Assembly: GCA_015490995.1 (NCBI GenBank) | Contig: WFWT01000084.1 | Location: 1 to 38,174, forward strand | Length of the DNA stretch: 38,174 nucleotides | Source of the DNA: Anaerolineae bacterium | Lineage (GTDB): Bacteria > Chloroflexota > Anaerolineae > JAADDB01 | Direction: 5' to 3' | Shown: positions 20,801 to 37,031 of the stretch, in pieces | Layout: every line of letters begins with the position of its first letter | Numbering within the stretch: position 1 is the first letter of the stretch | Notes under the pieces: generated by a model | Told to the model about the DNA's origin: nothing | The model's input: the letters and a program-made list of their open reading frames with translations, nothing else | The model's database searches: none | Program-made: the position numbers and the translations under genes

Positions 20801-20898
20801 AACCGGTCCGACAAACTGTACTCCATCTCCACCGCGGCGCTGCCAGGGCGCAACATCTCACGTAGCCAATCGGTTAATCGACGTGTCTTGGGCGTCAT
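17884..20898 (-). CDS. soeA: Cytoplasmic molybdopterin oxidoreductase large subunit, SoeA-like
   Basis: 1004 residues, DMSO-reductase superfamily. An N-terminal [4Fe-4S] motif has Cys88, Cys91, Cys95 and Cys125 (CFNCESAC ... NCAKG). 'SHTNICSAAARTGY' supplies a likely Mo-ligand cysteine near residue 215, placing it in the Psr/Phs/Ttr/Soe branch. The C-terminal molydopterin-dinucleotide-binding domain is visible ('LLLPTFRLPQHIHTRSANAKWL', 'IHPEDAARIGVRTGDLVRVETEIG'). There is no Tat signal: the N-terminus is soluble and charged, so the enzyme faces the cytoplasm. That favours SoeA (sulfite + menaquinone/quinone -> sulfate) over periplasmic polysulfide or thiosulfate reductases. The fused Fe-S/NrfD gene precedes it by 76 nt. 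ATG 20898 has GAGGAGACGCAGGG upstream. Assignment to sulfite is by operon context. Confidence 0.82.
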   Translation of the reverse strand: MTPKTRRLTDWLREMLRPGSAAVEMEYSLSDRFHRTDREPVRMTTVVHPDGRMSQYPPPEYWDDWVEWDGKLWPRRVAHRYTLVPTVCFNCESACGLLAYVDKETFEIRKFEGNPVHPGSRGRNCAKGPATLNQIYDPERILYPLKRVGKRGEGKWQRISWEQALDEIAAKIRESLARRKDGVVYHVGRPGEDGYTNRVLQAWGVDGHNSHTNICSAAARTGYALWSGADRPSPDHAHARVILLMSAHLESGHYFNPHAQRIIEGKMEGARLIVLDPRLSNTASMADIWLPTWPGSETTVLLALANYLIQNDLYDKTFVRRWVNWEETLWAIREGKLSVDDPALLAEIAALPPTLTAEHFPLFDRVLKALYREFTLERAAREADVPLDRLEKAAAYIAECDGRLATHTWRSATMGNLGGWQAARALFFLNVLTGSVGKRGGTLLHNWAKFVPKPFKVPPPVQVWNELHLPDEWPFAHYEMSFLLPHFLAEGRGTIDVYFTRVYNPLWINPDGFMWLKVLLDEEKIKCHVALTPTWNETAWFADYVLPMGHAGERHDLMSQETHAGQWIAFRQPVRRVAMERAGKKVRYTYEANPGEVWEENEFWIELSARIDPDGRLGIRQYFESPYRPGEIITVEEYYRWIFENSVPGLPEAAAKEGLTPIEYMRKYGAFEVKRDNYLGHERPPSGLENLSADEPLPEGYTVDDRQRIRDPEGNVIGILVDGEPKVGFTTPSRKLEFFSATLYDWGWKEREYVIPWPLKSHVHPENIDREKGEMLLLPTFRLPQHIHTRSANAKWLFELGHKNPVWIHPEDAARIGVRTGDLVRVETEIGYFVDYVWVTESIKPGIIAVSHHFGRWRLHKEDGVNRFASALVRLEELGDGQYRLRVVEEVQPYVSGDPDTERVWWRHVGAHQNLTHAVHPDPISGAHCWHQKALSVRKAEPDDRPGDVFVDTRKSMAVYRQWLAMTRPASRYSPDGTRRPYWLKRPLKPTKEAYKLPSREGSS

Positions 20899-20974
20899 CC
20901 CTGCGTCTCCTCGTGTGCACTACCTTATTCGATTCCCAGGTTCAGCTTACCGTGCCAATGACGTTCTGCTCGAT

Positions 20975-22701: not shown

Positions 22702-23781
22702 TTACTGGCTGTGAGACGAAGTAGCCATCACGATAGCCGTGACAAAGTCTTCCGCGGTCACCCCAGGCGACTGCACATTCATGCTCCGGTACACATCTCT
22801 TAAACGGGTGAGCAACGCTTCTTGAGTAGCCCGTAAACCGCGCACCGCTTGTTCCATAGCTGCTACCGCGAACGCGGGCAGAACCGTGAAATCGCCCGAG
22901 ATGCTGATGTCATCAATGTGTCCCTCCCGCAGACGGGCGACAACACGTATCAAGCCACCGGGTACTTTGTGAGCCGCTTCTACCACGTACACATCCTCGT
23001 GTATTTTGACGACTGGGGGCCGTAGGCGTCCCTTTTGGAAAAGCCACTCCTCCGAGGTAAACCGGTCGTCCAACTCACGCGCCATCGCCTCCTCGGCTTC
23101 CGTCCATTCCCCGGGCACCACCCGTACCCCCAAGGCTTCCTCGCAATGCCGGATGTAAAGAGCTTTGACTTCCTCCCGGTCAGGAACGTATCCTAGCTGT
23201 TCCTCCATGGTGGTCATGTACTGCTCTAGACTCTGATAAATCTTATCCCGCATCTTCTCGGAAGGAACTTTCAGCACTTGCGCCATCGTGCGCTTATCAA
23301 AGGTGAACATCAGACTTCCCACGACAACTTCCGCCATCCCAATCTGGGCAGCCCCGGTGCCACCGATCTTTTTCCCTCGGACATGAATGTCGTTAATGGG
23401 ACGATGGTACGCGTCAATACCTAAGGCACGATACGTTGCCACCAAGGGGCGGATGTACAGGGCAAAACGCTCTTCCAAAGAAGCCGGTAGCCGGTCCCGG
23501 TGGAAGATCCACTGCGTGAACACTTGACCGTTGTCCAAGTACACCGCGCCTCCCCCGACTTCCCGACGATACACGGGCAGGTTATGCTCGCGACAGTATG
23601 CGAGATCCACCTCTCGCTCCAGGTCTTGGTGGTAACCGATACACACATAAGGCGCGCTGGGGGAAACTAGAAGAATGGTATCCGGCGTGTCCGGTGTCAT
23701 AGCGTACGCCACCGCGTGAAACACCGTCTGGGATCGCAATGGGGAAACCTCGCCCAGGTCCAGCAACCGTACGGTCTTCAT
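22702..23781 (-). CDS. lplA: Lipoate-protein ligase A-like protein
   Basis: 359 residues. The catalytic domain contains 'YRREVGGGAVYLDNGQVFTQW', the R-R-x-x-G-G-G-x-V-Y motif (about 72-81), and 'VRGKKIGGTGAAQIG' with the lipoyl-AMP lysine near 138. An additional C-terminal domain (about 250-359) begins around 'LFQKGRLRPPVVKIHEDVYVV', like the accessory domain of bipartite LplA enzymes, and ends with a helical segment. The enzyme attaches lipoate or octanoate to carrier proteins. Immediately downstream of two genes for GcvH-like lipoyl carrier proteins in an sHdr operon, it is probably the dedicated ligase for these. No LipS1/LipS2 radical-SAM sulfur insertase is present in this window. ATG 23781 has GGGAGGCGGGC upstream. 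Confidence 0.88.
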   Translation of the reverse strand: MKTVRLLDLGEVSPLRSQTVFHAVAYAMTPDTPDTILLVSPSAPYVCIGYHQDLEREVDLAYCREHNLPVYRREVGGGAVYLDNGQVFTQWIFHRDRLPASLEERFALYIRPLVATYRALGIDAYHRPINDIHVRGKKIGGTGAAQIGMAEVVVGSLMFTFDKRTMAQVLKVPSEKMRDKIYQSLEQYMTTMEEQLGYVPDREEVKALYIRHCEEALGVRVVPGEWTEAEEAMARELDDRFTSEEWLFQKGRLRPPVVKIHEDVYVVEAAHKVPGGLIRVVARLREGHIDDISISGDFTVLPAFAVAAMEQAVRGLRATQEALLTRLRDVYRSMNVQSPGVTAEDFVTAIVMATSSHSQ

Positions 23782-23824: not shown

Positions 23825-24274
23825 TCATTCCACGCACCGAAAACAACGGATATTGTTGGCCTCAATGCGAGCCATGTACCGCTGCACCGCCTCCTCACCC
23901 GTCACCAAGTGATCCCGTTCACTTTCCAGCTGTAGGGGACGAACCCGCACCAACCATCCCTCCCCGTAGGGATCTTTGTTGGCTAACAGGATGTCACGGG
24001 TGAAAGCGGCCTCGTTGGTTTCCACAATCTCGCAGGTAAAGGGCGCGGGGAAGGGTCCGACCCACTTACCACTTTCAATAGTCGCCAGTGCTCGGCCCTG
24101 ACGAACCACCTTCCCCGGCCGTTTGAAGCGGACGGCCACCAGTTTGCCACACCGCGTCTGGGCCGGATCGGTCATCCCCAGCACCGCGGTGCCGTCCTCC
24201 TCGAACCGAATCCAGACATCTCGCTCTACGTCATAGTACAGGTGCTCTGGGATATCACAACCGTAGTAAATCAT
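23825..24274 (-). CDS. lbpA: Lipoate-binding GcvH-like protein (LbpA type), copy 1
   Basis: 149 residues with the GcvH beta-barrel pattern. The lipoyl lysine is Lys70 in 'TIESGKWVGPFPAP'. The barrel ends with 'ANKDPYGEGWLVRVRP', the conserved D-P-Y-G-x-G-W. Real glycine-cleavage H proteins have E-S-V-K-A; the ESGKWVG context and the absence of gcvPT genes favour a sulfur-oxidation LbpA. It also has Cys6 in 'YYGCDIPEHLYY' and a C-terminal 'CFRC' pair (144, 147), not part of GcvH. The lipoyl arm would carry sulfur intermediates for the sHdr complex. It is next to the second copy (54-nt gap) and 43 nt before lplA. Confidence 0.9.
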   Translation of the reverse strand: MIYYGCDIPEHLYYDVERDVWIRFEEDGTAVLGMTDPAQTRCGKLVAVRFKRPGKVVRQGRALATIESGKWVGPFPAPFTCEIVETNEAAFTRDILLANKDPYGEGWLVRVRPLQLESERDHLVTGEEAVQRYMARIEANNIRCFRCVE

Positions 24275-24328: not shown

Positions 24329-24769
24329 TCATTCTTCACATCCGATGCCTTCCTGGGACAGGAATTGCGCATATCGTTCGACCCCTTCCGGGCCGGTGAC
24401 CATTTGTGCTTTCTCGGCCTCCCAGTTGTCCGGTCGAATGCGGGCAAACCAGCCTTTACCGTAAGGGTCATCATTAATCAACTTGGGGTTGGCCACCGCC
24501 TCCTCGTTGACGGCCACAATTTCACCGGTGACGGGTGACGTCACCGGCCCCACCCACTTACCGCTTTCCAACGTCCCCAAACTGCGTCCCCGCTTAACTT
24601 TCTTACCTACACCTTTGGGCATCGCGTTGATAATACCCCTCGCCATGTTCTGTGCCACGTCTGTGATGCCCACCGTAACAGTACCATCCTCCTCCGGCCG
24701 GGCCCACACGTGTTTCTCCGGCCAGTAATACAGGTTCTCCGGGATGTTGCACCCTCGAATGTGTGCCAT
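24329..24769 (-). CDS. lbpA: Lipoate-binding GcvH-like protein (LbpA type), copy 2
   Basis: 146 residues. Lys71 in 'TLESGKWVGPVTSPV' is the predicted lipoylation site, and 'INDDPYGKGWFARIRP' closes the barrel. Like the adjacent copy it has an N-terminal cysteine, Cys7 in 'IRGCNIPENLYYWPEKHVWAR', and a C-terminal cysteine (Cys144, 'GIGCEE'). The sequence is clearly diverged from copy 1, so the pair is not a recent duplication. ATG 24769 is preceded by AGGAGGTCATA, one of the best ribosome sites in the operon, hinting at high expression. Role as for other LbpA proteins: sulfur-carrier substrate protein of sHdr. Confidence 0.9.
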   Translation of the reverse strand: MAHIRGCNIPENLYYWPEKHVWARPEEDGTVTVGITDVAQNMARGIINAMPKGVGKKVKRGRSLGTLESGKWVGPVTSPVTGEIVAVNEEAVANPKLINDDPYGKGWFARIRPDNWEAEKAQMVTGPEGVERYAQFLSQEGIGCEE

Positions 24770-24834: not shown

Positions 24835-25155
24835 TCAGGCACCGGTAGGACGACCCCCTCCGTGACCTATACCGTGTTCTCCCTGCAAGTGGTACAGGAG
24901 CAGATCAAACACCACCATGTAAATTTGCTCTTTGAACTCTTCAAGAAAGGCGGGGTTATCGCGGGCGCGTGGGATGATCTGGTCATGGCTGGCACCACAA
25001 ATGGGGCACGTCACCACACAATAGGTATAACCGAACTTCTCATTGACCCGCCAACCCAACTGATCTCCGTGTTCTTGGACCAGGTGCCTGTGAACGTCCA
25101 TACGTGTTCCGGTAAAGTCACAGTATGGACAAGGAAACTGCCCTGTGGCCGTCAC
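24835..25155 (-). CDS. Small double zinc-finger-like protein, unknown function
   Basis: 106 residues from GTG 25155, whose codon overlaps the stop of the preceding gene (GTGA). Two treble-clef or C2H2-like units are visible: 'PCPYCDFTGTRMDVHRHLVQEHGD' region with C-x2-C and His-rich helix near residues 9-30, and 'TCPICGASHD' (about 50-58) followed much later by 'HLQGEHGIGH'. The C-terminal helical segment 'FKEQIYMVVFDLLLYHLQGEH' separates them. No close family is recognised. It could bind zinc or iron and act as a small adaptor or regulator. Translational coupling to the preceding unknown gene and location between the membrane Fe-S protein and LbpA genes suggest a role tied to the sHdr system. 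Confidence 0.7.
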   Translation of the reverse strand: MTATGQFPCPYCDFTGTRMDVHRHLVQEHGDQLGWRVNEKFGYTYCVVTCPICGASHDQIIPRARDNPAFLEEFKEQIYMVVFDLLLYHLQGEHGIGHGGGRPTGA

Positions 25156-25688
25156 GTTGTCTTCCCCTCAGCCTCAGCACACCAATGATGTAACCTCTGG
25201 GCAGTGCCTTGGGCAACGGCTTCGATCCAGGTCACAATCCCTTCACCCAGAGGTGTAATGCGCACATCATCACTTTCCAGTTCCTGTACCGCTAACCCAG
25301 CCTGCATTAAGGTGTTCACCCGATCGTGGGTAGGCACCCGATACGCGTCGATTTCCGCCATCAGGGCACGCAGGGCAACGGTGTTTTCCTGCTTTAGGCG
25401 CCGCAACAACCGGAAGTTGACCGGATCACTGGCCACCTGCAAGGCCCTCAGGGTCATGTGCAGCGCCATATCCGCGAGCTCATCTTCACGCTCCACCAGT
25501 GTCTCAAACCAACCGTTGAAATCTTGTACCGTCTCCAGCCGATCATGTCGGTACAAGGCCAGTACCAAGGATTTGATCCGGGTGAAAAGGCCTTCCACAA
25601 TGGCCGTGTTATGCTCCTCGTGAAATGTCATCGTCGTGTTTGTGGGTTTTCTCACTTGATGTGTCGTCCACTCCATCACTGCGACCAT
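25152..25688 (-). CDS. Hypothetical helical protein in the sulfur operon
   Basis: Up to 178 residues; ATG 25688, ATG 25676 and a downstream ATG (residue 20, 'MTFHEEHNTAIVEG') are possible starts and none has a clear ribosome site. The protein is mostly helical and charged, soluble, without cysteine clusters (one Cys near the C-terminus). The last third, 'HDRVNTLMQAGLAVQELESDDVRITPLGEGIVTWIEAVA', here cited in parts, 'LMQAGLAVQELE' and 'RITPLGEGIVTW', looks like the recognition-helix and wing of a winged-helix domain, so a DNA-binding or protein-interaction role is possible. I do not recognise the family. It begins 9 nt after the stop of the membrane Fe-S protein gene and is coupled to the zinc-finger gene by a 4-nt overlap. 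Confidence 0.75.
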   Translation of the reverse strand: MVAVMEWTTHQVRKPTNTTMTFHEEHNTAIVEGLFTRIKSLVLALYRHDRLETVQDFNGWFETLVEREDELADMALHMTLRALQVASDPVNFRLLRRLKQENTVALRALMAEIDAYRVPTHDRVNTLMQAGLAVQELESDDVRITPLGEGIVTWIEAVAQGTAQRLHHWCAEAEGKTT

Positions 25689-25696
25689 CGTGTCCG

Positions 25697-27760
25697 TTAT
25701 CCCGCGGGCGAACGGGCCACGTCGGCAGCCTGGGGAGTGGACGCCGAAGCACCCTCCCCGTTTAGCCCTACCGCGCGGGCAACCAACTGAGCGATATCGA
25801 TAACCTCAATGCGGCCTTCGTAGCCGGCCGTTTTCACCGCGTCACTGTACATGGCCATATCCTTGGGACACGCCACCACAAAGTAGCGAAGGTCATCCCC
25901 GAGGCCTGCCGCCTCCTTAATGCGCTGCTCGCTAGGCCGCTCGCCTGTCGCCGTGTCCATCCAGATACGTCCCCCGCCCGCCCCACAACAGAACGTGTTC
26001 ACACCGTGACGGGGCATCTCCCGAAAATCGATCCCTAAGGCACGCAGAATGCGGCGAGGGGCCTCCGTAACCCGGTTATATCGTCCCAAGTAGCACGGAT
26101 CGTGATACGTCGCCACCACGTCGTGCAACTTATCGTTCAGCGGCAATCGTCCTGATTCGATCAAGTCGGCCAACACCTCGGTATAGTGATATACCGGGAC
26201 ATCCAGACCATACGCTTTGTACTCGTTCTTCAGAGCGTTGTACGTATGAGGGTCAGTGGTGACGATAGCCTTAAATTGAGCCTTGGAGAATTCCTTCATG
26301 TTGTGCTCAACCAGCATCTCGAACAGACCTTCTTCCCCTACTCGACGCACATCATTGCCGGAATTGCGCTCACCTTCGTAGAGTAGCCCAAAGTCTAAGC
26401 CGGCCATGTGAAAGAGCCGAGCCACAGTCTTGGTGTTCTCCTGCATTCGGGGATCATAGGAAGCAAAATCGCCCACAAACCAGAGGTATTCCACCGGCTC
26501 TTTACGGGCGTCCTTGATCTTGAAATCCAGTTCCTTTGTCCAGCGTGCGCGACGCCGTGCAGGCTTGTTAAAGGAATTCCCCTGACGCGCCAGGCTCTCC
26601 AGCGCTTCCTGGAGGTTAGGATCCATTTCATCCCCGGAGAAGACCAGGTGACGACGAATATCAATGATGTCCAACATGGGACGGTTGCCTGTTGGGCAGA
26701 TGTCTACACATGCGGCACAGGTAGTACACGCCCAGACCGCTTCCTTGGAAATGGCCATGTGCAACAAGGGAGGAGGCTCCATAGTGCCTGCGGCGAAATC
26801 GGCCAAGTGTTCGTTCAGAAAATACCGCTTGTTAATTTCCAGCGCGGCCGGACTTAAGGGTTGAGCCGTGTTATGGGCCGGGCAAACGTCCTGACACCGG
26901 AGACACATAATACAAGCGTAGGCATCCATTAACTGGTACCAACGCAACTCCTGTAGCCGTGCCGCCCCTTCGCCACCGTTAGTAGGAGGCTCTAACTGCC
27001 CCAACGGACGCTCAGGATCACGGAGGATCCAATTCAAGGGGGCCACTATCAGGTGAATGTGTTTGGAGTAGGGGAAATAGGGCAAAAACAGGAGGATCAG
27101 CCCTAGAGCAAGCCACCAGGTGACATGTTCTCCAACGGTAAGAGCCTGTTCGCTAACCCCCATTAAGGCGAAGGAAACCACACTGGCGGTAGGTTGCCAC
27201 CAGTCGGGCTGGCCCGAAGCGGCGATCCGGATGGCCTGTCCGAACCAACGGGAACCTACGTGGAGCAAAATAAAGGTACCCACAATGAGAGAATCGCGCG
27301 GGATGCCGCCGGGCACATGGGGGTTTAAGAGAACGGTGTCGTTAAAGCGGAAGGGCTTCAGGCCAAACCTCCGGATAAGAAGCGCAGCCATGCCGATAAG
27401 CGCGGCCACACTGAGAAGATCGGCTATAAGGTTGTACACGCCCCAGATGCCGCCCCGGTGTAAGGTGCTGAACCCGACGAAACCTTCCGCCAGGTCGAAG
27501 ATGTTCACCAAGGTGTAAAAGGTGAACGCGAAGAAGACAAAGGCATGAAAGAGGCTCACAACGGGGCGCGCCTTCAGTATGGGCTTCTGCAAAAGGATCT
27601 CAACGGTGACGGGGATTACACGGCGGAGAAACAGGTGAAGAGGAATCTCCCCTTCACCTCGGGTAATTGCTCGGTAGATGCGGTAGAACCCTCGCGCCGC
27701 GATGCTGCCACACACTACAACCAGCAACACGAAGGCAATGCGTTCAGGCAGTGTGAGCAT
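25697..27760 (-). CDS. Membrane Fe-S oxidoreductase, ETF:quinone oxidoreductase-like (NarI/HdrD fusion)
   Basis: 687 residues. The N-terminal 240 residues form five to six membrane segments of the NarI/DsrM-like haem b type, with histidines in 'FHAFVFFAF', 'LLHVGSRWFG' and 'YSKHIHLIV'. Two ferredoxin motifs follow: Cys283/286/289/293 and Cys345/348/351/355. The C-terminal part is HdrD-like (CCG domains, from about 420). The second CCG unit is intact (Cys556, Cys591-592, Cys631, 'FCCGAGGG'). The first has lost its cysteines: Asp431 in 'FVGDFASYDPR' and Ser467 in 'GERNSGNDVRR'. Proteins of this layout accept electrons from EtfAB and reduce menaquinone. It follows etfA by 36 nt, supporting that role as the exit to the membrane. 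Confidence 0.87.
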   Translation of the reverse strand: MLTLPERIAFVLLVVVCGSIAARGFYRIYRAITRGEGEIPLHLFLRRVIPVTVEILLQKPILKARPVVSLFHAFVFFAFTFYTLVNIFDLAEGFVGFSTLHRGGIWGVYNLIADLLSVAALIGMAALLIRRFGLKPFRFNDTVLLNPHVPGGIPRDSLIVGTFILLHVGSRWFGQAIRIAASGQPDWWQPTASVVSFALMGVSEQALTVGEHVTWWLALGLILLFLPYFPYSKHIHLIVAPLNWILRDPERPLGQLEPPTNGGEGAARLQELRWYQLMDAYACIMCLRCQDVCPAHNTAQPLSPAALEINKRYFLNEHLADFAAGTMEPPPLLHMAISKEAVWACTTCAACVDICPTGNRPMLDIIDIRRHLVFSGDEMDPNLQEALESLARQGNSFNKPARRRARWTKELDFKIKDARKEPVEYLWFVGDFASYDPRMQENTKTVARLFHMAGLDFGLLYEGERNSGNDVRRVGEEGLFEMLVEHNMKEFSKAQFKAIVTTDPHTYNALKNEYKAYGLDVPVYHYTEVLADLIESGRLPLNDKLHDVVATYHDPCYLGRYNRVTEAPRRILRALGIDFREMPRHGVNTFCCGAGGGRIWMDTATGERPSEQRIKEAAGLGDDLRYFVVACPKDMAMYSDAVKTAGYEGRIEVIDIAQLVARAVGLNGEGASASTPQAADVARSPAG

Positions 27761-27796: not shown

Positions 27797-28759
27797 TCAC
27801 TTCTCCAAGGTTTCCAGCAAGGCATCCACGATGTCGAACAGATCGGCTACGACACCGTAATGTGCCACGTCAAAAATAGGCGCGTTGGGGTCGGTGTTGA
27901 CGGCAATGATGAGCTCGGCATCTTTCATGCCCTCCACGTGTTCGGGCGCGCCACTGATGCCCAGTGCGAGGTAGAGTTTAGGCTTCACCTTCTGGCCCGA
28001 CTTGCCCACCTGCCGAGTGCGCGGTAACCAACCGGCATCCACCACCGGCCGGGAAGCGGCCACCACTCCTCCCAACGCCTGGGCCAGTTCCTCCGCCACT
28101 TCAATGTTGTCCTCGCTTTGGATGCCCCGGCCTACCGCGACGATAACATCCGCCTTGGTGATGTCCACATCCCCTGTTTCAGGCTCATTCAGCTGCAGGA
28201 AACGGGTATGTAAGCCGTTGAGGGTGCTGGGAGTCACCTGCTCCACACTGGGGCTATTACCCGCCCGCCCGTCATCGGCCGGAAACGCGCCCGCGAGAAC
28301 CGTCACCATGGCCGGCCCGTCATCCAGCCGACATTCAGCCATTACCTTACCGCCATAGATCTGGCTGGTGGTGACAATCGCGCCGTTTTCCGCGCGCAGG
28401 GCATTACAATATGCCACCAGAGGCCAGTCCAGCCGCGCTGCCAAGTACGGTGCCAGGTCCATCCCTATAGCTGTGTTTTGGAAGATGGCCAACCGGGGGC
28501 GGTGTTCCTGCAACAGAGGTTCCAGTGCTTTGACATACCCCTCCGGGCTGTAATGGGCCAAGGAGGGGTGGTCCACCACCAGCACTTTATCGGCAGCAGC
28601 CATTTGGGCAGCCAGTTCGCTCACTTCATGGCCGAGAACGACACCTACCACCTGACCGCCCGTCGCGTCGGCCAGGTTTCGTGCAGCTCCCAGGGCTTCA
28701 AATGTCGTCTCGGTGAGAACACCTTGCAAATGTTCGGCGATCACAAAATACGTGCTCAT
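27797..28759 (-). CDS. etfA: Electron transfer flavoprotein alpha subunit
   Basis: 320 residues. The N-terminal alpha/beta domain (about 1-190) precedes the FAD-binding domain with 'VGRGIQSEDNIEVAEELAQ', 'ASRPVVDAGWLPRTRQVGKSG', 'PKLYLALGISGAPEHVEGM' and 'VNTDPNAPIFDVAHYGVVAD', the canonical EtfA signatures. One variation is S-G-A-P-E-H in place of the usual S-G-A-I-Q-H near the flavin. EtfAB normally shuttles electrons from dehydrogenases to a quinone reductase. Here it lies between an HdrB3-type protein and a membrane Fe-S protein in an sHdr operon, so it likely takes electrons from sulfur oxidation. ATG 28759 has GGAGACCC upstream. A hairpin occupies the gap to etfB. Confidence 0.96.
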   Translation of the reverse strand: MSTYFVIAEHLQGVLTETTFEALGAARNLADATGGQVVGVVLGHEVSELAAQMAAADKVLVVDHPSLAHYSPEGYVKALEPLLQEHRPRLAIFQNTAIGMDLAPYLAARLDWPLVAYCNALRAENGAIVTTSQIYGGKVMAECRLDDGPAMVTVLAGAFPADDGRAGNSPSVEQVTPSTLNGLHTRFLQLNEPETGDVDITKADVIVAVGRGIQSEDNIEVAEELAQALGGVVAASRPVVDAGWLPRTRQVGKSGQKVKPKLYLALGISGAPEHVEGMKDAELIIAVNTDPNAPIFDVAHYGVVADLFDIVDALLETLEK

Positions 28760-28862: not shown

Positions 28863-29639
28863 TCACGTAATGAGCCCACGTTCGCGAAGGATATCCACGA
28901 TCTTCTCGGCAATAGTGGCCTCATCCCCTTCCAAGATCTCCGCGCGGCCGCTAACTTCCGGAATGAACATGCGTCGGAGAGGGGCCACCGGAGCCTCAGG
29001 CAGGTCCTCTACTTCGATCTCTTCAATGGTAGCCTCCTTCATAGCCTGTCGGACTCGGCTGACCGGCGCGTAACGTGGGGCCTGCCGTGCGGCCTGAATG
29101 CCCAACACGGCCGGTAGGTCCACTTCCAAGTCGGCGGTGATACCTCCCCAGAACTCCTTTTGCACCTTAACCACGCCGTTGACCCGTGCCACGCTGGTCA
29201 CCACGCCCACGTGAGGCACATTCAAGAGCGCGGCCAGCATAGGGGCTACCTGACCGTCGAGGTCATCCGCTGCTTGAACGCCGGTGAACACGAGATCGTA
29301 TGTCATTTGTTGCAGGGCACCGGCCAAGAGACGCGCCATGACCGGGATGGGAAGGCGTTCCCCCTCCTCGAAATCCCCCACGATCTTGATGGCCCGGTCC
29401 GCCCCCTTGGCCAGGGCCGTGTAGAGGGCCTGGTCCAGCTCACCGGTTGTGTCCACTCCGATCACCGTCACCGTGGCGCCCGTCTCCTCTTTCAGGAGGA
29501 GGGCTTCTTCCAGGGCGTGATCGTCAAACTCGTTCAGCACAAAGCTCAACACGTCTGGATCCAGGCCTGTTCCCTCATCGTTGATCTCTAACTCCTCAAC
29601 GAGATCAGGCACCTGTTTGAGCGCTACTACAATGTCCAT
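28863..29639 (-). CDS. etfB: Electron transfer flavoprotein beta subunit
   Basis: 258 residues from ATG 29639 ('MDIVVALKQVPDLVEELEIN', the standard EtfB start), with GGGGGA about 9 nt upstream; a longer frame to 29693 adds an implausible 18-residue leader. Core motifs: 'FVLNEFDDHALEEALLLKEE', 'VTVIGVDTTGELDQALYTALAKGADRAI' in parts, 'LVFTGVQAADDLDGQVAPMLA', and 'DLPAVLGIQAARQAPRYAP', with the AMP/nucleotide-binding pocket at the TGxQAxDxDxGQVxPxLA loop. The C-terminal arm 'EIEVEDLPEAP' fits the docking region. It pairs with etfA 103 nt downstream. Confidence 0.96.
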   Translation of the reverse strand: MDIVVALKQVPDLVEELEINDEGTGLDPDVLSFVLNEFDDHALEEALLLKEETGATVTVIGVDTTGELDQALYTALAKGADRAIKIVGDFEEGERLPIPVMARLLAGALQQMTYDLVFTGVQAADDLDGQVAPMLAALLNVPHVGVVTSVARVNGVVKVQKEFWGGITADLEVDLPAVLGIQAARQAPRYAPVSRVRQAMKEATIEEIEVEDLPEAPVAPLRRMFIPEVSGRAEILEGDEATIAEKIVDILRERGLIT

Positions 29640-29689
29640 GGTACACATTCCCCCATCAGTTGGTTTGTGATGCGTTGGGGCGGTGTCCC

Positions 29690-30973
29690 TCACACGCCCA
29701 TTGCTTCCGCGATAAGCTCGGCAATGTCCTTCACTTCCAGTTTGCCCTCGTTACCCGTGGACTTGACCGCGTCCTCGAAGCGGGAAACCTCGTACGGACA
29801 CACAACGACCAGTGTGTCCGCGCCGGTGGCAATGGCTTCCAGCACCCGCTGCTCGGAAAGACGGCGTCGCTGATAATTGACTACATAGCCATCAAGCCAC
29901 ATGCCCCCACCCCCACCGCCACAGCAATAGCCGTTCTCCCGACACCGCCACATCTCCACAAATTCCACCCCCGGCAAAGCTTGGATGAGCTGCCGAGGGG
30001 CTTCGTATTCCCCATTATGGCGCCCGAGATAACAGGGGTCATGGAAGGTCACCTTCCGGTTGAGGGGTTGGGTCATCAGTTCCCGGAGGCGGTCCAGGTG
30101 TTGAACCAACAGTTGGGTGTAATGCCACACCTCGTACTCCCCTCCGTACTTGGGATAATATTTGCGGAACGCGTTCAAGGCGTGCGGGTCAGTGACCACC
30201 ATGCGCTCAAACTCATACTTGCTCAGGGTAGCAATGTTCTGCTCTGCCAGCATCTCGAACAGCCCCTTCTCCCCGGCCAGACGCTGAGAATCCCCCGCAC
30301 ACTTCTCTTCCCGTCCCAGGATGCCAAAATCAATGGCCAGTGCGTTGAAGATTTTGGCCAGAGCAATGCTGGCATCAATCCCTCGGGGATGATAGGATGG
30401 ATAACACTCTACCCACCAGAGCCATTCCACGGGCCGTTTTTCCTTGTACAACAAGGGCACCGGCACTCCTGCCTTCTTCACCCACGCATCCCGCTTGCGT
30501 GGGGGTTGGCCCAGCGGATTACCATACCGAAAAGTGTTCTCCAACGCCTCTTGCAGTTCCGCAGGTACATTGTTTCCGCTGAGAAGGGCCTGCTCTCGCA
30601 AGGCGGGCATGATCTGGACCATGTCGACCAACTTGGGGCACACGCGGAGGCAGTTGGCACAGGTAGTACACAGCCACAAATCCGGGCCTTGCGTCCAGTC
30701 GATCCCGGTTTGCGATTTGCGATACAGTTTGCGAGGCCCATAGTCCCCCACCACATCTACGGGACACACGGGCACACACTTGGCGCACTGGTAGCACCAA
30801 GCAAAGGATTCGGCGCCCTCTATGCTGGCAATCTGGTCGATGAGGTCAGGGGTATACTCCCAGATCACCCGCTGCTCAAACATGCGGTTCCAGGGACCGG
30901 AGATGTCCATCCCCTCCACAACCGCGGTTTCCTTTTCCCAAATGGCCTGTACCTTGTCCAGTCCGGCATCCAT
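29690..30973 (-). CDS. Soluble HdrD/HdrB3-type Fe-S oxidoreductase
   Basis: 427 residues. Two ferredoxin motifs (Cys60/63/66/70 'CYQCAKCVPVCP' and Cys102/105/108/112 'CTTCANCLRVCP') are followed by a pair of CCG-like units: Cys190 in 'VECYPSYHPR' and Cys225 in 'GREEKCAGDSQR' (first), Cys314 'DPCYLGRHN' and Cys350-351 'GYCCGGGGGGMW' (second). This is the HdrC-HdrB fusion organisation of HdrD-like proteins without a membrane domain. In the sHdr variant known as type II, as I recall it, an HdrB3/HdrD-like protein and EtfAB replace the second HdrC-HdrB pair, which matches the position directly before etfB. It probably relays electrons from sHdrABC to EtfAB. ATG 30973 has GAGGAG upstream. Confidence 0.88.
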   Translation of the reverse strand: MDAGLDKVQAIWEKETAVVEGMDISGPWNRMFEQRVIWEYTPDLIDQIASIEGAESFAWCYQCAKCVPVCPVDVVGDYGPRKLYRKSQTGIDWTQGPDLWLCTTCANCLRVCPKLVDMVQIMPALREQALLSGNNVPAELQEALENTFRYGNPLGQPPRKRDAWVKKAGVPVPLLYKEKRPVEWLWWVECYPSYHPRGIDASIALAKIFNALAIDFGILGREEKCAGDSQRLAGEKGLFEMLAEQNIATLSKYEFERMVVTDPHALNAFRKYYPKYGGEYEVWHYTQLLVQHLDRLRELMTQPLNRKVTFHDPCYLGRHNGEYEAPRQLIQALPGVEFVEMWRCRENGYCCGGGGGGMWLDGYVVNYQRRRLSEQRVLEAIATGADTLVVVCPYEVSRFEDAVKSTGNEGKLEVKDIAELIAEAMGV

Positions 30974-31079: not shown

Positions 31080-31883
31080 TCACGCCCCGTTGCCCTCGGT
31101 CGGCTGAATGCCAAGTAACCGGCGGGCCAATTTAGGCAACGGGGGCAACAGCCGGTGAAACTCTCGGCTTAGCCGCCAGCTGGTGATGCCGTAGAGGTAC
31201 ACACAGTACGCGCAGGCCAGAAAAGCATCTGCAGCAAAAACCCGACGCTGCGGATGTGCCATCAAATCCTGGGTCAGCAGGCCGGTTCCCTCCGCAAAAC
31301 GCAGGCTCATGGCCGTCACCGACCCCACGTTAACATAACCCTGGGCCACATCATCGGCCAGCAAGTTGCGAACGCTACCGGCCAGCAAAGGTAGGATGCC
31401 GGTATGATGTTTGACATCCCACAGCCAGCGAGTCCACAACCAGTGGTCTTCCGGATAAAGGTAATGGAGCAGACCGGTGGCCAGCTCTAAGCTTAATCGA
31501 GGATCTGGGGCCTGAAACGCGGTGACAAAATCGGCAACGCGCCGGGCCGGAGGCGCTGCACCGAAGAGGAGGTGCCGTACCGCATCCTTCGGATCCTGTT
31601 CCCGTAACAACGTCCCTAACGTCTGGCGATGACGACGTGCCGCCGTTACCCGAGCAGCCACCCAGTCCCAAGCCTCCGGCCCGAGCGCGCTTATTTGCCC
31701 CGGTGTCCCTAACCGTTCCACAAAGGCTCGATGTTGAGCCACCAGATCGTCCGCGATAGCGATCAGGTCCTCCGCCGCGATCTGATCTAACCCTTCGGTC
31801 AGCGTCTCCTGAAGCTCCGGGTCGTCCGGACCGGTAAGCGGTTTGATAATGTGACTTTTCCATCCCGGTGGGACGGTGTTCAT
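31080..31883 (-). CDS. Hypothetical protein between hdrA and the HdrD-like gene
   Basis: 267 residues, soluble and alpha-helical, with a Trp/His-rich centre ('LLHYLYPEDHWLWTRWLWDVKHHTG') and a hydrophobic region near the C-terminus ('FAADAFLACAYCVYLYGI'). There is no Cys cluster, Rossmann motif or signal peptide, and I do not recognise a family. Other sHdr loci carry a 'hyp' gene of unknown function in a comparable place, but homology to it cannot be judged by eye. Start ATG 31883 with AGGCAGGACG upstream; it follows hdrA by 14 nt, so it is cotranscribed. The Trp-rich motif is unusual and could mark a cofactor or partner-binding surface. Confidence 0.8.
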   Translation of the reverse strand: MNTVPPGWKSHIIKPLTGPDDPELQETLTEGLDQIAAEDLIAIADDLVAQHRAFVERLGTPGQISALGPEAWDWVAARVTAARRHRQTLGTLLREQDPKDAVRHLLFGAAPPARRVADFVTAFQAPDPRLSLELATGLLHYLYPEDHWLWTRWLWDVKHHTGILPLLAGSVRNLLADDVAQGYVNVGSVTAMSLRFAEGTGLLTQDLMAHPQRRVFAADAFLACAYCVYLYGITSWRLSREFHRLLPPLPKLARRLLGIQPTEGNGA

Positions 31884-31897
31884 CGTCCTGCCTCTCT

Positions 31898-32965
31898 TTA
31901 TGCTGCTTTCGCCAACTGTAGACGGCGCACCGTGGCTACCGCACGTGCAGCCGCCAGCCCCGCGGTGGCAAAGGTGTCGTCCAAATCCGCGGGTCCGGAC
32001 GCGGCCCCCGCGACGAAAATGCCCGGCCGCGATGTGGCTACCGGGTCTACGCCCGTGGGGCCTCCTGCTTCAATGTATCCGTATTTGTTCTGTCGAATAT
32101 CCAGGATTTTGGCGATCTTGCGCGTCCCTTCGCTGGGCTCCATGCCTACCGAGAGCACCACCAAGTCCACCGTCACTTCCATTGGACGGCCCATGGTGGT
32201 GTCCTCCCCGCGGATCAGAAGCCGATCCCCTTTGGGCAGGATCTCGCTCACGATGCCTTTCACGTAATTGACCTTATACTCTTCCTGGGCGGGCCAATAA
32301 ATCTCGTTCTCCCAGTAACCGTACATGCGCATGTCGATGTAAAAAATGAAGACCCGCGAATCAGGTAACTGCTGCTTGACCTCGATAGCCTGTTTGCTGG
32401 CAATACCGCAACAGACCTTAGAACAGAATTCGTTGCCGATTTGGCGGTCTCGTGAGCCGACACACTGGATAAAAGCCACGCGCTCCGGTGGCTGACCGTT
32501 GGAGGGGCGTACCACCTGGTGTGCTTTGAGCATACCTTCCAGGTCGGCGATGGTGATCACGTCGGGGAAGGTGTAATAGTTGTACATCTGAGTTTCCCGG
32601 CCCGGGTCGAAGTGCTGGAAACCGGTGGCCACGATAATAGAGCCCACGGTCACCTCTTCTGCCGAAGCGCCGTTACGGATCTTGACCCGGAAGTTGCCCG
32701 GTTCTCCCTCACAACCCACCACCTCGCTGCTGGTCATCACCGTCACATTAGAATGTGTGGTCACCGCCTCCACCAGCTCACGAATCATATCCTCCGCCTC
32801 ACGGAAGTGGTGGGTCAACTTGGCGTAATGCTCTTCCTCCGGGCGGCCCCCCAGTCGGTCTCGCCGCTCCACCAAGAGGACGGGATATCCCAGGTCGGCG
32901 ACGGAGCGGGCAGCTTCCATGCCCGCAGGTCCCCCTCCAATGACCAGAACCGTTTCACTCGCCAT
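31898..32965 (-). CDS. hdrA: HdrA-like FAD protein of the sHdr complex
   Basis: 355 residues from ATG 32965, with GGAGGGAACG upstream. The frame runs open to 33043 only because it reads through the adjacent repeat. FAD-binding 'TVLVIGGGPAGMEAARSV' and 'LVERRDRLGG' open the protein. 'IQCVGSRD ... FCSKVCC' (Cys168, Cys181, Cys185, Cys186) binds the HdrA-type [4Fe-4S] cluster, and 'VFIFYIDMRMYG' follows as in all HdrA. 'PGIFVAGAASGPADLDDTFATAG' closes the flavin domain. It is about half the size of methanogen HdrA and lacks the inserted ferredoxin domains, as typical for sulfur-oxidiser sHdrA, which holds FAD but does not bifurcate in the same way. Confidence 0.93.
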   Translation of the reverse strand: MASETVLVIGGGPAGMEAARSVADLGYPVLLVERRDRLGGRPEEEHYAKLTHHFREAEDMIRELVEAVTTHSNVTVMTSSEVVGCEGEPGNFRVKIRNGASAEEVTVGSIIVATGFQHFDPGRETQMYNYYTFPDVITIADLEGMLKAHQVVRPSNGQPPERVAFIQCVGSRDRQIGNEFCSKVCCGIASKQAIEVKQQLPDSRVFIFYIDMRMYGYWENEIYWPAQEEYKVNYVKGIVSEILPKGDRLLIRGEDTTMGRPMEVTVDLVVLSVGMEPSEGTRKIAKILDIRQNKYGYIEAGGPTGVDPVATSRPGIFVAGAASGPADLDDTFATAGLAAARAVATVRRLQLAKAA

Positions 32966-32989
32966 CGTTCCCTCCTGAGGGTGTGAATT

Positions 32990-33066
32990 CGTGACACGTG
33001 ACACGCAACACGTCACACGCACGCAACACGCATTCCATGTCACGCGTCACGTGTCACGCCTTACGC
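32990..33066. repeat. CGTGACAC-type tandem/inverted short repeat between hdrB and hdrA
   Basis: A 77-nt stretch built from variants of heptamer/octamers such as GTGACAC, CACGTGAC, CGCAACAC, GTCACGC and CCTTACG. GTGACACGTGAC (32991-33002) and GTCACGTGTCAC (33046-33057) are a perfect 12-bp inverted repeat, so a large hairpin can form. The stretch fills nearly all the 102 nt between the hdrB stop and the hdrA ribosome site and has no coding role. Confidence 0.8.
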
Positions 33067-33067
33067 C

Positions 33068-34288
33068 TTACGCCGCAACTGCGATGGGTTCGTCCGCGTC
33101 TTCCCAGGTGAGGCCGGGTTTCTCCCCGCGGCGGATAGCTTCCAAGTCCTCCTGGAATTCCTCCCAGTACTTCTCCCAATCAATGCCTAACTTCTCGAGC
33201 AGCGGACGCCAGTCGGTGGAATGCCAGTGCAACTGCAACACCCGGAAGGGGTGCGCTCCCATGGCCAGCGCGGCCACCTGGGCGTCCGACAGGACCGGCA
33301 CCCCAACCTTGCGGTTGTGGGCTTTAGCTGCAAACTGACTCTTGTCCAGCGTCGTCACACACCCGGTGTCATGGGTCACGACCATGTCCGGGTTAACCTC
33401 GGTTTTCATGACCTCTATCTTTCGCAGCACCGCGAAGGAACGGGTGAAATCTCGCTGCACTAAAATGTGCCGGAAGCCGAAACCACAACAATCGAACCAG
33501 GTGGAGTAGTCCGCCACGTTGATGCCCAGCGCTTCCAGCAAGCCGGTGACCGTAGCCGTTCGTTGGGCACCGTAAATCTCAGGGTCATAGATGGCATCCT
33601 CGGCCACGATCTTGTAATAGTGGCATGCCGGGTGGACGCAGGCGGTAAGGTGGCTCATGTCTACCACCTGTCGTTCGGCAATGCGGTGGCGCATCACGTG
33701 CACCCACTCGCTGTAGTGCACGATCTCCTCAGGCACCACCAAGGGCTTACCCAGCTTGTCCATAAGGCGCCGCGCCTCATCCCGCAGTTCCTTATGATGG
33801 ATGAGCTGCTCCCGCACCTCCTTGTAGTGGCCGTAACTGGTGCCACAATGAATGAGGGGGTAATAGCCCAGCTCATACGCAGCCGCGAAGTTCCGACACA
33901 TCACCGCGATTTGTGCCACCGCGTTGGAGGTGGCCGAAGCGTAATAGTTCCACCCTGTGCAGGAGGTCTGATCGGTGGGGTCCACGTAATCCAACTCAAA
34001 CTGGCGATGCAGCCAGAAAATAGAAGCCGAATATCCTGGAATGTGGCCACACTGCCCACACGACTTGTGATGCCACGTGTGTTCGATGGGGATCTTCTTC
34101 TTCCGGCCGAACTTCGTCATCACCTCAACGTAAGGCTCAGGCACTCGGTGGACGATGATCTCCCCTTTGGCCTCCAGCTCAAAGAGTTCTTCACGCAGGT
34201 CGTGCGTGGGGGCTTCCGTGGGGTCGCGCAGGACAGGACGCGACTTGCGTTCCATAATTTCATCCAGCGGAACAAATGCTGTCGCCAT
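33068..34288 (-). CDS. hdrB: HdrB-like subunit of the sHdr complex
   Basis: 406 residues, two CCG-type cysteine-rich halves. First half: Cys77/Cys80 ('SCGQCGH'), Cys110 ('SCTGWNYY'), Cys131 and Cys148 ('HCGTSYG'). Second half: Cys217/Cys222 ('ACVHPACHYYK'), Cys267-268 ('FDCCGFGFRH') and Cys310 ('DTGC'). In methanogen HdrB such motifs hold noncubane [4Fe-4S] clusters where the disulfide is cleaved; in sulfur oxidisers the homologue is the presumed site for sulfur-substrate chemistry. The first half is degenerate relative to HdrB (SCTG for CCG), whereas the second is intact. The start ATG overlaps the hdrC stop (TAATG), giving translational coupling. The C-terminus ends 'DEPIAVAA' at the edge of the repeat region. 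Confidence 0.92.
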   Translation of the reverse strand: MATAFVPLDEIMERKSRPVLRDPTEAPTHDLREELFELEAKGEIIVHRVPEPYVEVMTKFGRKKKIPIEHTWHHKSCGQCGHIPGYSASIFWLHRQFELDYVDPTDQTSCTGWNYYASATSNAVAQIAVMCRNFAAAYELGYYPLIHCGTSYGHYKEVREQLIHHKELRDEARRLMDKLGKPLVVPEEIVHYSEWVHVMRHRIAERQVVDMSHLTACVHPACHYYKIVAEDAIYDPEIYGAQRTATVTGLLEALGINVADYSTWFDCCGFGFRHILVQRDFTRSFAVLRKIEVMKTEVNPDMVVTHDTGCVTTLDKSQFAAKAHNRKVGVPVLSDAQVAALAMGAHPFRVLQLHWHSTDWRPLLEKLGIDWEKYWEEFQEDLEAIRRGEKPGLTWEDADEPIAVAA

Positions 34289-34980
34289 TATGCCACCTCC
34301 TCCAGTGCTTCTTCCATCACATCCAACAACAACTCATACAACCCTTCGTCCACTTCCTGGATGATGTCGATGTTGTTGGTCTCAAACCAGATAGTGTAGA
34401 GCTCCAACAGCGTCTTTTCATCCGTGCGCCAAGCAGCATCGGTGACCCCTCGCAGGGTATCCACCGGGATCGCGCGACGCCACACATCCATGTTCTCGCT
34501 AAACTCCCGCACCCAAGGCCCCCAATCGGGGAAGAAATCGGGTTGGAGCATGTCCGGCGAGACCTGGTTGCCCTTAAGCATGACCTTGTAGATGACTCGG
34601 CTGTACCCCTGGAGGACATCGCGGGCCTCCTTGAGGCCGTTGCGCACCGCGACCTCACGAATCAGGGTGACCAGACCGCCGGGGTTGTTCTGGCGCGGGC
34701 ACCGCACGCAGGAAAAACATTGCGCACAGTTCCAGATGTCTTCCACCAAGATTTCGTAAAACCGATCTACGTCCTCACGGGCCATCGCCTGCGCAATAAC
34801 CCGCGGACTGAAATCGTAAAAGCGGGCCGAAGGACAGGCCGACACACAAATCCCGCACTCATAACACCCGTAGAGGAAGTCCTCATACCGCGGGTCGTTT
34901 TTCACCTCGAGGAACAGGCGAAGCTTTTCCTCATACGGTACATCCGCATACTTGTCCGGCTTGGTCGAGACCCAATCCAT
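34288..34980 (-). CDS. hdrC: HdrC-like ferredoxin subunit of the sHdr complex
   Basis: 230 residues. Two [4Fe-4S] motifs: Cys39/42/45/49 ('CYECGICVSACP') and Cys85/88/91/94 ('CAQCFSCVRCP'). The second has C-x2-C-x2-C-x2-C, one residue shorter at the last spacing than the usual x3. A helical C-terminal region (about 110-230) ends in an acidic helix 'LLLDVMEEALEEVA'. HdrC passes electrons between HdrB and HdrA. It overlaps hdrB by one base and follows the thioredoxin-like gene by 14 nt. ATG 34980 has GGAGGCGG upstream. Confidence 0.92.
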   Translation of the reverse strand: MDWVSTKPDKYADVPYEEKLRLFLEVKNDPRYEDFLYGCYECGICVSACPSARFYDFSPRVIAQAMAREDVDRFYEILVEDIWNCAQCFSCVRCPRQNNPGGLVTLIREVAVRNGLKEARDVLQGYSRVIYKVMLKGNQVSPDMLQPDFFPDWGPWVREFSENMDVWRRAIPVDTLRGVTDAAWRTDEKTLLELYTIWFETNNIDIIQEVDEGLYELLLDVMEEALEEVA

Positions 34981-34994
34981 ACACCGCCTCCATA

Positions 34995-35267
34995 TCAGCG
35001 TGTGCTGTGGGTTTTATGGCGTTCCCGTTCTATCGCTTTCACCAGGGCATCCCGCTCCGGCACGCCCACAAAGCGAATATCGCCCACAATGATGGTAGGG
35101 ACGGACAAGATCCCCTCTGCCTTGGCCGCCGCCCGCCCTTGAGGGCTGCCTAAGCTGATCACTCGGACCGCCACATCCGGGTAAGCGGCGGCTGCCGCTT
35201 CCGCCAGCCGGATGGCTGCCGGACATGTTTTACAGACGGGGTGCGTGAAGACACGAATGTACAGCAT
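34995..35267 (-). CDS. Small thioredoxin/glutaredoxin-fold protein
   Basis: 90 residues. The N-terminal strand 'MLYIRVFTHPVCKTCPAA' has a C-K-T-C redox motif (Cys12, Cys15). 'GILSVPTIIVGDIRFVGVP' contains the cis-proline (V-P-T) and the following strand, with 'ERDALVKAIER' as last helix, the pattern of the compact thioredoxin_3/NrdH-like group. It likely reduces or shuttles thiols/persulfides for the neighbouring sulfur-relay and lipoyl proteins; this is inferred from position (14 nt before hdrC, 36 nt after lbpA). GGAG overlaps just upstream of ATG 35267. Confidence 0.85.
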   Translation of the reverse strand: MLYIRVFTHPVCKTCPAAIRLAEAAAAAYPDVAVRVISLGSPQGRAAAKAEGILSVPTIIVGDIRFVGVPERDALVKAIERERHKTHSTR

Positions 35268-35303: not shown

Positions 35304-35780
35304 TCACTCCGGCACTTCGTACCCTTCGCAGTGCACACAATCCTCTAATCCCTTTTCGGCCATCAAAGCTTCATATGCACGAATGGCCTCCTCACCTGTC
35401 ACCAAATCCTGCAAATCCCGTTCCAGGTTCTCGGGCCGGAAACGCACCAACCAGCCCCGGCGATAAGGACTCCGGTTCACCCATCCTGCATCCTCGGCTA
35501 CCAGCGGGTTAGTCGCGACCAAAGTGCCGGCGACAGGTGTGCGCAAGGCCCCAAGCCATTTCGAACTCTCCACCACCGCTACCACTTTGCCCCGAGCATA
35601 AAAGGCGCCCACGGGGCGAAAGGTCACGTGCAATATTCCCCCCGCCGTTGTCTGCGCCACATCTGTGTACCCGAGCGTCACATCCCCGTTCGGCTCAACA
35701 CGGGCCCAGATGTGATCCTCCACTTTGTAGTAAAGGTGCAAGGGCAGGACACAGTTGCGAACCAGAACAAACGCTGCCAT
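35304..35780 (-). CDS. lbpA: Lipoate-binding GcvH-like protein (LbpA type), copy 3
   Basis: 158 residues, the most diverged of the three copies. Predicted lipoyl lysine Lys74 in 'VVESSKWLGALRTPVAG'. The barrel is completed by 'RSPYRRGWLVRFRPEN', with R-S-P-Y-R-R-G-W in place of D-P-Y-G-x-G-W. It has Cys10 in 'VRNCVLPLHLYYKVEDHIWAR' and a C-terminal 'CVHC' (148, 151), the same added cysteines as the other copies. It is located with the sulfur-transfer genes rather than beside lplA, so it may meet a different partner. ATG 35780 has ATCGGGGG close upstream. Confidence 0.88.
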   Translation of the reverse strand: MAAFVLVRNCVLPLHLYYKVEDHIWARVEPNGDVTLGYTDVAQTTAGGILHVTFRPVGAFYARGKVVAVVESSKWLGALRTPVAGTLVATNPLVAEDAGWVNRSPYRRGWLVRFRPENLERDLQDLVTGEEAIRAYEALMAEKGLEDCVHCEGYEVPE

Positions 35781-35792
35781 ACCCCCGATACC

Positions 35793-36179
35793 TTAAAAGG
35801 CAATGACGGCATCTGCTTCCAGGGCCAGGAAGTTGAACGCGGCCCCACCGATCATCTTCACACCGTCAATCAAGTCATCCATTGTCAGGCCATGTAAGTC
35901 CAGCGAGGGTTGGCAGACCAAAAACTCCACCCCTACGTCCATAGCCTGGCGGATGAAGTGGGCCAGGGGGGCGCCCCCACCCCCCGCCTTGGGCACAATG
36001 ATGTTCTCAGCCACCCCTTTCTTGAGCAGTGTAGCCCCGTTCATCGTGAAATAAATGGAAACTTCTACGTCCATTGCTGCAGCAGCCGCGGCCAGGAAAA
36101 AGGGTGTTGCCAGCCGCCGCTTATCATCATCTACCCCGTTAGTCTGCACGTACACGATCTTCTTGCCTTCAACGTCCAC
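35793..36179 (-). CDS. dsrE: DsrE-family sulfurtransferase-like protein
   Basis: About 128 residues from GTG 36179, which has GGAGGGGGCC at the right distance; the frame reaches GTG 36194 but those codons lie within the ribosome site. The DsrE/F fold is seen in 'KKIVYVQTNGVDDDKRR', 'AMDVEVSIYFTMNGATLLKKG' and 'GVEFLVCQPSLDLHGLT' with Cys89 as the predicted persulfide site. It likely hands sulfane sulfur between TusA and the sHdr/LbpA proteins. It lies 12 nt before lbpA copy 3 and 33 nt after the DsrE2-like gene. Confidence 0.88.
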   Translation of the reverse strand: MDVEGKKIVYVQTNGVDDDKRRLATPFFLAAAAAAMDVEVSIYFTMNGATLLKKGVAENIIVPKAGGGGAPLAHFIRQAMDVGVEFLVCQPSLDLHGLTMDDLIDGVKMIGGAAFNFLALEADAVIAF

Positions 36180-36212
36180 GGCCCCCTCCACCACGTCGAG
36201 ATAAAGTCTTTT

Positions 36213-36725
36213 TTAAATAAACAAGCTCACATCAGCATCCGCTGCGAACTGGAGAAACGTCGCCGCGCCGCCCACCTCCACCTCTGGGATAAAATCCTCC
36301 TTGGTAAAGCCAAACACGTCCATCGTCATCTGACAGCCGATCAGCTTCACTCCCAGGTCAATGCACATCTGACGTAGCTCCTCGATGCTGGGCACATTCT
36401 TGTTCTTGAAGGTCATCTTCATGAGAGTGGTGGCCATTGCCTGAAAGCCAGGAAGCGCCTGCAACGCGACCGGAATAGGCCAGTTGATCTCCTGAAACCC
36501 GTTGGGGCCAAAGGGCATTTTCATCGGCATGGCCGGATTGCCCAGAGGGGAGACGGCCGGGTTGTAGTCCGGTCTCAGCAGGAGCAGGCCGTAAAAGGTG
36601 AAGAACACTTGGACTTCCCACCCCAAGGCAGCTGCCGTGCTCGCCAGAATGAAGGGAGGATAGGCCCAATCCAACGTGCCCTTGCTGGCAATCAACGCCA
36701 ACCGCCGCCGCCGTTCCTCCGCCAT
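36213..36725 (-). CDS. DsrE2-like protein
   Basis: 170 residues. 'LALIASKGTLDWAYPPFILASTAAALGWEVQVF' (in parts) and 'FFTFYGLLLLRPD' are typical of the DsrE2 (DsrE/DsrF/DrsH-like) family. 'IDLGVKLIGCQMTMDVFGF' carries the conserved C-x-M-T-M-D with Cys131; Cys121 lies ten residues earlier. No transmembrane hairpin is evident apart from a Pro/Met-rich hydrophobic loop (about 57-95) typical of this family. DsrE2 proteins pass sulfane sulfur with TusA, whose gene is immediately upstream (12-nt gap). ATG 36725 has AAGGAGGGGCACC upstream. Confidence 0.9.
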   Translation of the reverse strand: MAEERRRRLALIASKGTLDWAYPPFILASTAAALGWEVQVFFTFYGLLLLRPDYNPAVSPLGNPAMPMKMPFGPNGFQEINWPIPVALQALPGFQAMATTLMKMTFKNKNVPSIEELRQMCIDLGVKLIGCQMTMDVFGFTKEDFIPEVEVGGAATFLQFAADADVSLFI

Positions 36726-36737
36726 GGTGCCCCTCCT

Positions 36738-36977
36738 TTACCTGGTGCGCCGGATGTAGAACACGAACTTTCCGTTTTCCTGCTCACTGGCCAGCAGCTC
36801 GTGGCCCGTTTGCTTGGCCCAGGCCTCCATGTCGGCAGGGGCGCCCGGATCGGTGGCTATCATCTTGAGCACCTGACCCACCGCGATCTCCTGAATGGCC
36901 TTGGAGGTCTTAATCACCGGCATGGGGCACAGGAGACCGCTGCAATCCAACACCTTGTCTGCCTGCATTGCGGACAT
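36738..36977 (-). CDS. tusA: TusA-family sulfur carrier
   Basis: 79 residues. 'LDCSGLLCPMPVIKTSKAI' has the TusA signature C-P-x-P with the persulfide Cys17; Cys12 is an additional nearby cysteine. 'MIATDPGAPADMEAWAKQTGHELL' and the last strand 'GKFVFYIRR' complete the fold. ATG 36977 is chosen because AGGAGG lies 8 nt upstream; GTG 36986 is too close to it. It is the first gene of the leftward operon, following a candidate promoter by about 50 nt, and should accept sulfur from rhodanese-like or other donors. Confidence 0.93.
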   Translation of the reverse strand: MSAMQADKVLDCSGLLCPMPVIKTSKAIQEIAVGQVLKMIATDPGAPADMEAWAKQTGHELLASEQENGKFVFYIRRTR

Positions 36978-37031
36978 GGCGGACACCTCCTACAGGGGTT
37001 CGAGGCTACTACTGGGTGGCTGGATACTTCT

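Follow-up and report, generated by a model that had tools for sequence, protein, structure and literature searches.

Two small genes inside the type II sHdr operon of an Anaerolineae bacterium, here called ORFA and ORFB, belong to families whose tie to sHdr loci is near absolute. Both lie in the window, the whole 38,174-nt stretch of DNA that was analysed. We favour, tentatively and at a confidence somewhat short of probable, the reading that the two genes encode an accessory module confined to type II sHdr, in which a winged helix would bind protein and assemble or modulate the Emo/LbpA stage.

ORFA (25152..25688, minus strand) encodes a 178-aa protein with a predicted ArsR-type winged helix and long N- and C-terminal helices, and its homologues lie between Emo and LbpA2. 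ORFB (24835..25155, minus strand) encodes a protein of 106 aa that has two C-x2-C...H-x4-H zinc-type sites and an invariant H22. The two lengths and the 4-nt overlap were as the preliminary description had given them: the ORFA stop codon TGA and the ORFB start codon GTG share the GTGA at 25152..25155 on the minus strand, which suggests translational coupling. ORFA starts 8 nt past the Emo stop, and the GTG inside the overlap is the sole start codon for ORFB before an upstream stop. The same overlap is usable in nine two-gene loci (the window, KSB1 locus L048, four f102 loci, L045, L158 and L159). Because homologues are found in the same operon in two phyla and these nine loci can use the overlap, ORFA and ORFB are, as judged from sequence, real genes and not chance ORFs. 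ORFA may start at Met20 (25631), since homologues begin there and residues 1-20 were poorly modelled.

ORFA and ORFB lie within a type II sHdr-EtfAB operon that is complete. Type II has been defined by shdrC1, B1, A, H and B3 together with etfAB in one syntenic cluster (PMC11582611), and all of these genes are present as a single cluster in the window. The operon lies on the minus strand and opens with a TusA-like ORF of 82 aa (36738..36986; CSGLLCPMPVIKT), named from its sequence and not from a family scan. It is followed by a DsrE3A-like sulfurtransferase (36213..36725; Pfam DrsE_2), a DsrE-family sulfurtransferase (35793..36194; family scan), the GcvH-like lipoate-binding protein LbpA1 (35304..35780; Pfam GCV_H) and a small thioredoxin-like ORF of 90 aa with a CxxC motif (34995..35267), which was also outside the family scan. 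Next come sHdrC1 (34288..34980), which shares 94% identity with its syntenic counterpart in L015; sHdrB1 (33068..34288) and sHdrA (31898..33043), both from the family scan; the conserved hypothetical sHdrH (31080..31883), which is syntenic and without a Pfam or NCBIfam family; and sHdrB3 (29690..30973), of the fused C2-B2 type with CCG domains and 4Fe-4S (Pfam CCG and Fer4_8) and an HdrC-like region.

The second half of the operon begins with EtfB (28863..29693) and EtfA (27797..28759), identified as ORFs with syntenic homologues; we take their family names from the preliminary description and general knowledge. Emo (25697..27760; Pfam CCG and Fer4_8), a membrane CCG-domain iron-sulfur protein, is presumably the Etf:quinone oxidoreductase. 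After Emo come ORFA and ORFB, then LbpA2 (24329..24769; Pfam GCV_H), LbpA3 (23825..24274; an LbpA2-like ORF in conserved synteny) and a lipoate-protein ligase (22702..23781; family scan). The placement of the two genes between a membrane electron-transfer gene and lipoyl-carrier genes, as first described, was thus upheld. An FeS-NrfD protein and then a molybdopterin enzyme lie 3' of the ligase. This region (17884-22645), with its FeS-NrfD fusion, is often kept with sHdr in relatives, and the closest models to the molybdopterin enzyme are tetrathionate or thiosulfate reductases, far under their cut-offs. Promoter and terminator scans gave counts near the shuffled expectation.

A GTDB-wide contig scan with two ORFB peptide patterns returned 35 ORFB loci, 33 in Chloroflexota and two in KSB1; ORFBs that had diverged further, in other Chloroflexota classes, escaped these patterns and were recovered by profile search. 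All 35 were sHdr-EtfAB-Emo loci, and ORFB lay between Emo and LbpA2 in those of Chloroflexota. Among 396 genomes of the window's class, sHdr-type Emo, told from a paralogue by score, was present in 26. ORFA and/or ORFB occurred in 24 of these 26 sHdr loci, and no strong match to either was found in the 370 class genomes without sHdr-type Emo (Fisher 2e-36, uncorrected for relatedness; as the sampled genomes are phylogenetically linked, this value is descriptive only). Profile searching across the phylum brought in 10 further genomes belonging to other Chloroflexota classes, all with the match in an sHdr locus and nine with both genes. The usual order was Emo-ORFA-ORFB-LbpA2, and the slot between Emo and LbpA2 was fixed across Chloroflexota. 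KSB1 genomes with the pair have a complete type II operon, in which the two genes lie together ~5 kb downstream of Emo, adjoining an NrfD gene and past the lipoylation genes. No ORFB was found in PLSDB plasmids, where sHdrB1 matches came from Acidithiobacillus only.

Every strong match lay inside an sHdr locus, in line with the proposal that homologues accompany sHdr-EtfAB loci; for Firmicutes and Actinobacteria, which also have type II loci, the survey consisted of the GTDB-wide scan with the two ORFB patterns. The preliminary description had named two outcomes that would speak against it, homologues mainly outside sHdr loci and assignment to a known unrelated family. Neither occurred: there was no strong homologue outside, and family and fold searches gave no such assignment. 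Weak ORFA matches in G181 and G386 were rejected as ordinary HTH proteins, as they covered the generic winged-helix region only and lay outside sHdr loci. A second Emo paralogue, with ~45% identity, was present in ~215 of the 396 class genomes (G000:C105:6699-8711, locus L120); the four contexts inspected were not sHdr loci and lacked ORFA and ORFB.

The two genes were not a strict pair. Six of the 26 class loci had ORFA and ORFB, nine had ORFA only, nine ORFB only and two neither, and a whole family keeps ORFB without ORFA. Solo occurrence of ORFA or ORFB weakens the suggestion that tight coupling reflects a complex, as far as one obligate two-protein complex is concerned. On one tree of Emo plus EtfA, with KSB1 as the root, two-gene loci were spread over deep branches and single-gene states formed later groups. 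This pattern points, provisionally given the rooting and the single tree, to a pair that was ancestral, with ORFB lost repeatedly and ORFA lost ahead of the family-f27 radiation.

On the same tree the window and L015 grouped with f102 (L150-L153), from another Chloroflexota class, with support 1.0. This grouping suggests horizontal transfer of the operon, ORFA and ORFB included. Six family-f27-type loci carry an ORF of 178-216 aa between Emo and ORFB; we considered these ORFs as candidates for a divergent ORFA and rejected them because they look like a transposase. The 178-aa ORF of this kind (MYPRIRMEGSVYYITT...HLHLLIYP) reads as Y1/REP-associated and showed 84-98% mutual identity among its sites (L020 1296, L024 9349, L025 4087, L026 9259, L036 9437 and L039 1020). 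The intergenic DNA of relatives was full of short, degenerate repeats (ATGCGTGATGCGTGATACG and CAATATCCAACACCC are examples) at L010 1480-2060, L011 10890-11000 and L012 470-570.

Neither window protein matched a Pfam or NCBIfam model over its cut-off, and both remain uncharacterised, as the preliminary description had stated. ORFA fell under the ArsR cut-off (Pfam HTH_5), so that its score does not place it in that family. L071 was the only ORFA homologue checked with a score above the ArsR cut-off of Pfam; a KSB1 homologue exceeded that of HxlR. MarR/ArsR-type Pfam models matched about half of the 17 members of the ORFA profile, mostly under cut-off. Compared with the PDB, this profile matched the ArsR proteins CmtR (E 2e-4), HlyU and NolR, as well as Csa3. 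An AlphaFold2 model from the family alignment (pLDDT 86; monomers only were run for ORFA and ORFB) had a long N-terminal helix, a winged helix of ArsR type at about residues 89-146 and a long C-terminal helix. The predicted model therefore has the winged helix and putative flanking dimerisation helices of the ArsR fold, and the earlier guess of a winged helix in a helical 178-residue protein held. Foldseek against the PDB placed BigR first, with CadC, NolR and HlyU among the best; these matches had probability 1.00 and target-normalised TM of ~0.7, yet E-values >0.001. Modelling and profile comparison together indicate that ORFA is a distant ArsR-type winged-helix protein.

The main rival to a protein-binding module is a transcriptional sensor pair, in which the cysteine-less, ArsR-type ORFA would bind DNA, ORFB would be a zinc-thiolate sensor of sulfane sulfur or redox state, and the pair would tune sHdr transcription. 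We consider it rather unlikely. In its favour are the ArsR fold, for which BigR was the top-ranked structural hit, and the one member over the ArsR cut-off. sHdrR and SoxR, known sHdr regulators, are also ArsR proteins, which counts against the protein-binding reading, and many ArsR regulators of sHdr organisms are without the two cysteines and may work differently (PMC12423496). A further point in its favour is the related 19-gene sHdr-Etf-LbpA cluster of Thermomicrobium roseum, unnamed hypothetical proteins included, which was reported to be induced 45-fold on average in stationary phase and to show the greatest expression change of any gene cluster in that organism's starvation response (PMC6776052). 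That cluster may contain the ORFA/ORFB pair.

Charge and position told against the sensor pair. The ORFA wing was acidic in 26 of 26 homologues, with a net charge of -1 to -3, and whole ORFA proteins carried -2 to -14. The wings of 17 ArsR proteins confirmed by Pfam and taken from the window's own class (mis-extracted rows L193 and L195 left out) ranged from -1 to +4, with a mean of +1.5 (Mann-Whitney 5e-8, 26 vs 17, a small control set), and their recognition surface was mostly positive. By predicted charge, an indirect indicator of DNA binding, ORFA does not have the basic wing of an ArsR DNA-binding surface. ORFA also has no conserved cysteine, most homologues having none at all, and the family lacks the two conserved cysteines of sHdrR and SoxR, which sense sulfane sulfur. 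The mid-operon slot, fixed in all Chloroflexota loci seen, is unusual for regulators, and the family with ORFB but without ORFA is hard to fit to a sensor pair. R37 and R47, on the N-terminal helix and away from the DNA-reading part, are among the best-conserved residues of ORFA. The recognition helix retains conserved polar residues (R117, and often ER at 122-123); these, with the L071 and KSB1 scores, weigh against the loss of DNA binding that the favoured reading assumes. Of the three functions first proposed for the pair, operon regulation is less likely, given the acidic wing and missing cysteines, and assembly and a structural or modulatory role are both retained.

ORFB matched zf-Di19 best in Pfam, the window protein scoring 20.2 bits against a cut-off of 27.5. 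The first unit was zf-Di19-like in all 35 aligned members, and only two KSB1 proteins among those checked passed the cut-off. Across 47 homologues, C9, H22, H24, H29, C50 and C53 were 100% conserved, C12 and H89 98% and H94 96%; R18 was also invariant. The C2H2 ligand pattern is thus present twice (C9, C12, H24, H29 and C50, C53, H89, H94), each position at ≥96%. The two zinc-finger-like units first described in the 106-residue protein have ligands fixed across the family, and we regard the CxxC...HxxxxH repeats as putative zinc sites. The AlphaFold2 model had a pLDDT of 87.5, and neither PDB structures nor viral models matched it significantly in fold searches. Two genes may be decaying ORFBs: one at L047 9998-10303, with a frameshift that alters the C-terminus, and one at L011 10977-11252, with one first-site cysteine gone (CPYG).

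In Chloroflexota, ORFB immediately precedes LbpA2, LbpA3 and the ligase, a position that raises another explanation, maturation of the lipoyl carriers, in which ORFB, with ORFA if present, would recruit the ligase to LbpA2/LbpA3 or deliver metal or sulfur. sHdr LbpA proteins do require dedicated lipoylation machinery (PMC10332631), but the KSB1 pair lies ~5 kb off, beside an NrfD gene and past the lipoylation genes, and two loci with LbpA2, LbpA3 and ligase have neither gene; we judge this role improbable. That ORFA and ORFB are passengers kept through operon inheritance, with no functional tie to sulfur oxidation, would fit the loss of either gene but is scarcely credible when one slot is retained across several classes and a second phylum, the genes are absent elsewhere and the zinc-type ligands are near-invariant.

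The protein-binding accessory module is favoured because ORFA is without sensor cysteines and both its wing and the whole protein are acidic. ORFA would have descended from the ArsR winged-helix fold, with DNA binding probably lost, and most likely forms dimers via the long helices at its termini. Its winged helix would bind protein, jointly with a zinc-stabilised ORFB where both are present. Position suggests as the target either the electron exit at Emo/EtfAB or the lipoyl carriers LbpA2/LbpA3 with their ligase, where the module could aid assembly or modulate turnover, much as DsrD activates DsrAB allosterically. Since two sHdr loci lack both genes, the module would not belong to the catalytic core; that either gene has been lost independently, and both in those two loci, likewise speaks against catalysis as its role. 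We infer protein binding, its target and a helper function on these grounds. A bolder version, which we find doubtful, would make ORFA and ORFB subunits or allosteric controllers of sHdr-Etf-Emo, a protein-binding ArsR fold and a new zinc domain gating electrons from lipoyl-bound sulfur to the membrane.

To our knowledge, type II sHdr has been little studied. We found no description of ORFA or ORFB in searchable papers, and no type II accessory proteins assigned in the literature beyond the sulfur-carrier and lipoylation genes. ORFA and ORFB are likely, though not proven, to be new to the literature, because subscription papers and supplementary tables were outside the search. A near-universal, locus-restricted module offers two concrete gene targets and a clean marker for this pathway variant in Chloroflexota genomes, and it may show how a repressor fold has been put to new use within a sulfur system that conserves energy.

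Compared with known systems, the window cluster has ORFA and ORFB, which the published type II definition does not include (PMC11582611). ORFA has its fold in common with ArsR/SmtB repressors (BigR, HlyU, NolR, CadC and CmtR) and its association with sulfur oxidation in common with sHdrR and SoxR of Hyphomicrobium. It differs from all of these in having no conserved cysteine, an acidic wing, longer terminal helices and a fixed mid-operon position, with the window protein below Pfam cut-offs. ORFB has the CxxC and HLxxxH spacing of C2H2-type and zf-Di19 fingers; unlike them, it has two sites within ~95 residues, a second site whose Cys and His pairs are ~35 residues apart, an overall acidic charge and no PDB fold match. 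DsrD is a winged-helix protein. It is also small and non-catalytic, is encoded in a sulfur operon and acts as an allosteric activator of DsrAB (PMC10591310). ORFA and ORFB resemble it in being small, apparently non-catalytic, and encoded in and restricted to a sulfur-redox operon, whereas ORFA is larger than DsrD, resembles ArsR and is usually accompanied by a zinc protein. The likeness is one of logic and not of homology.
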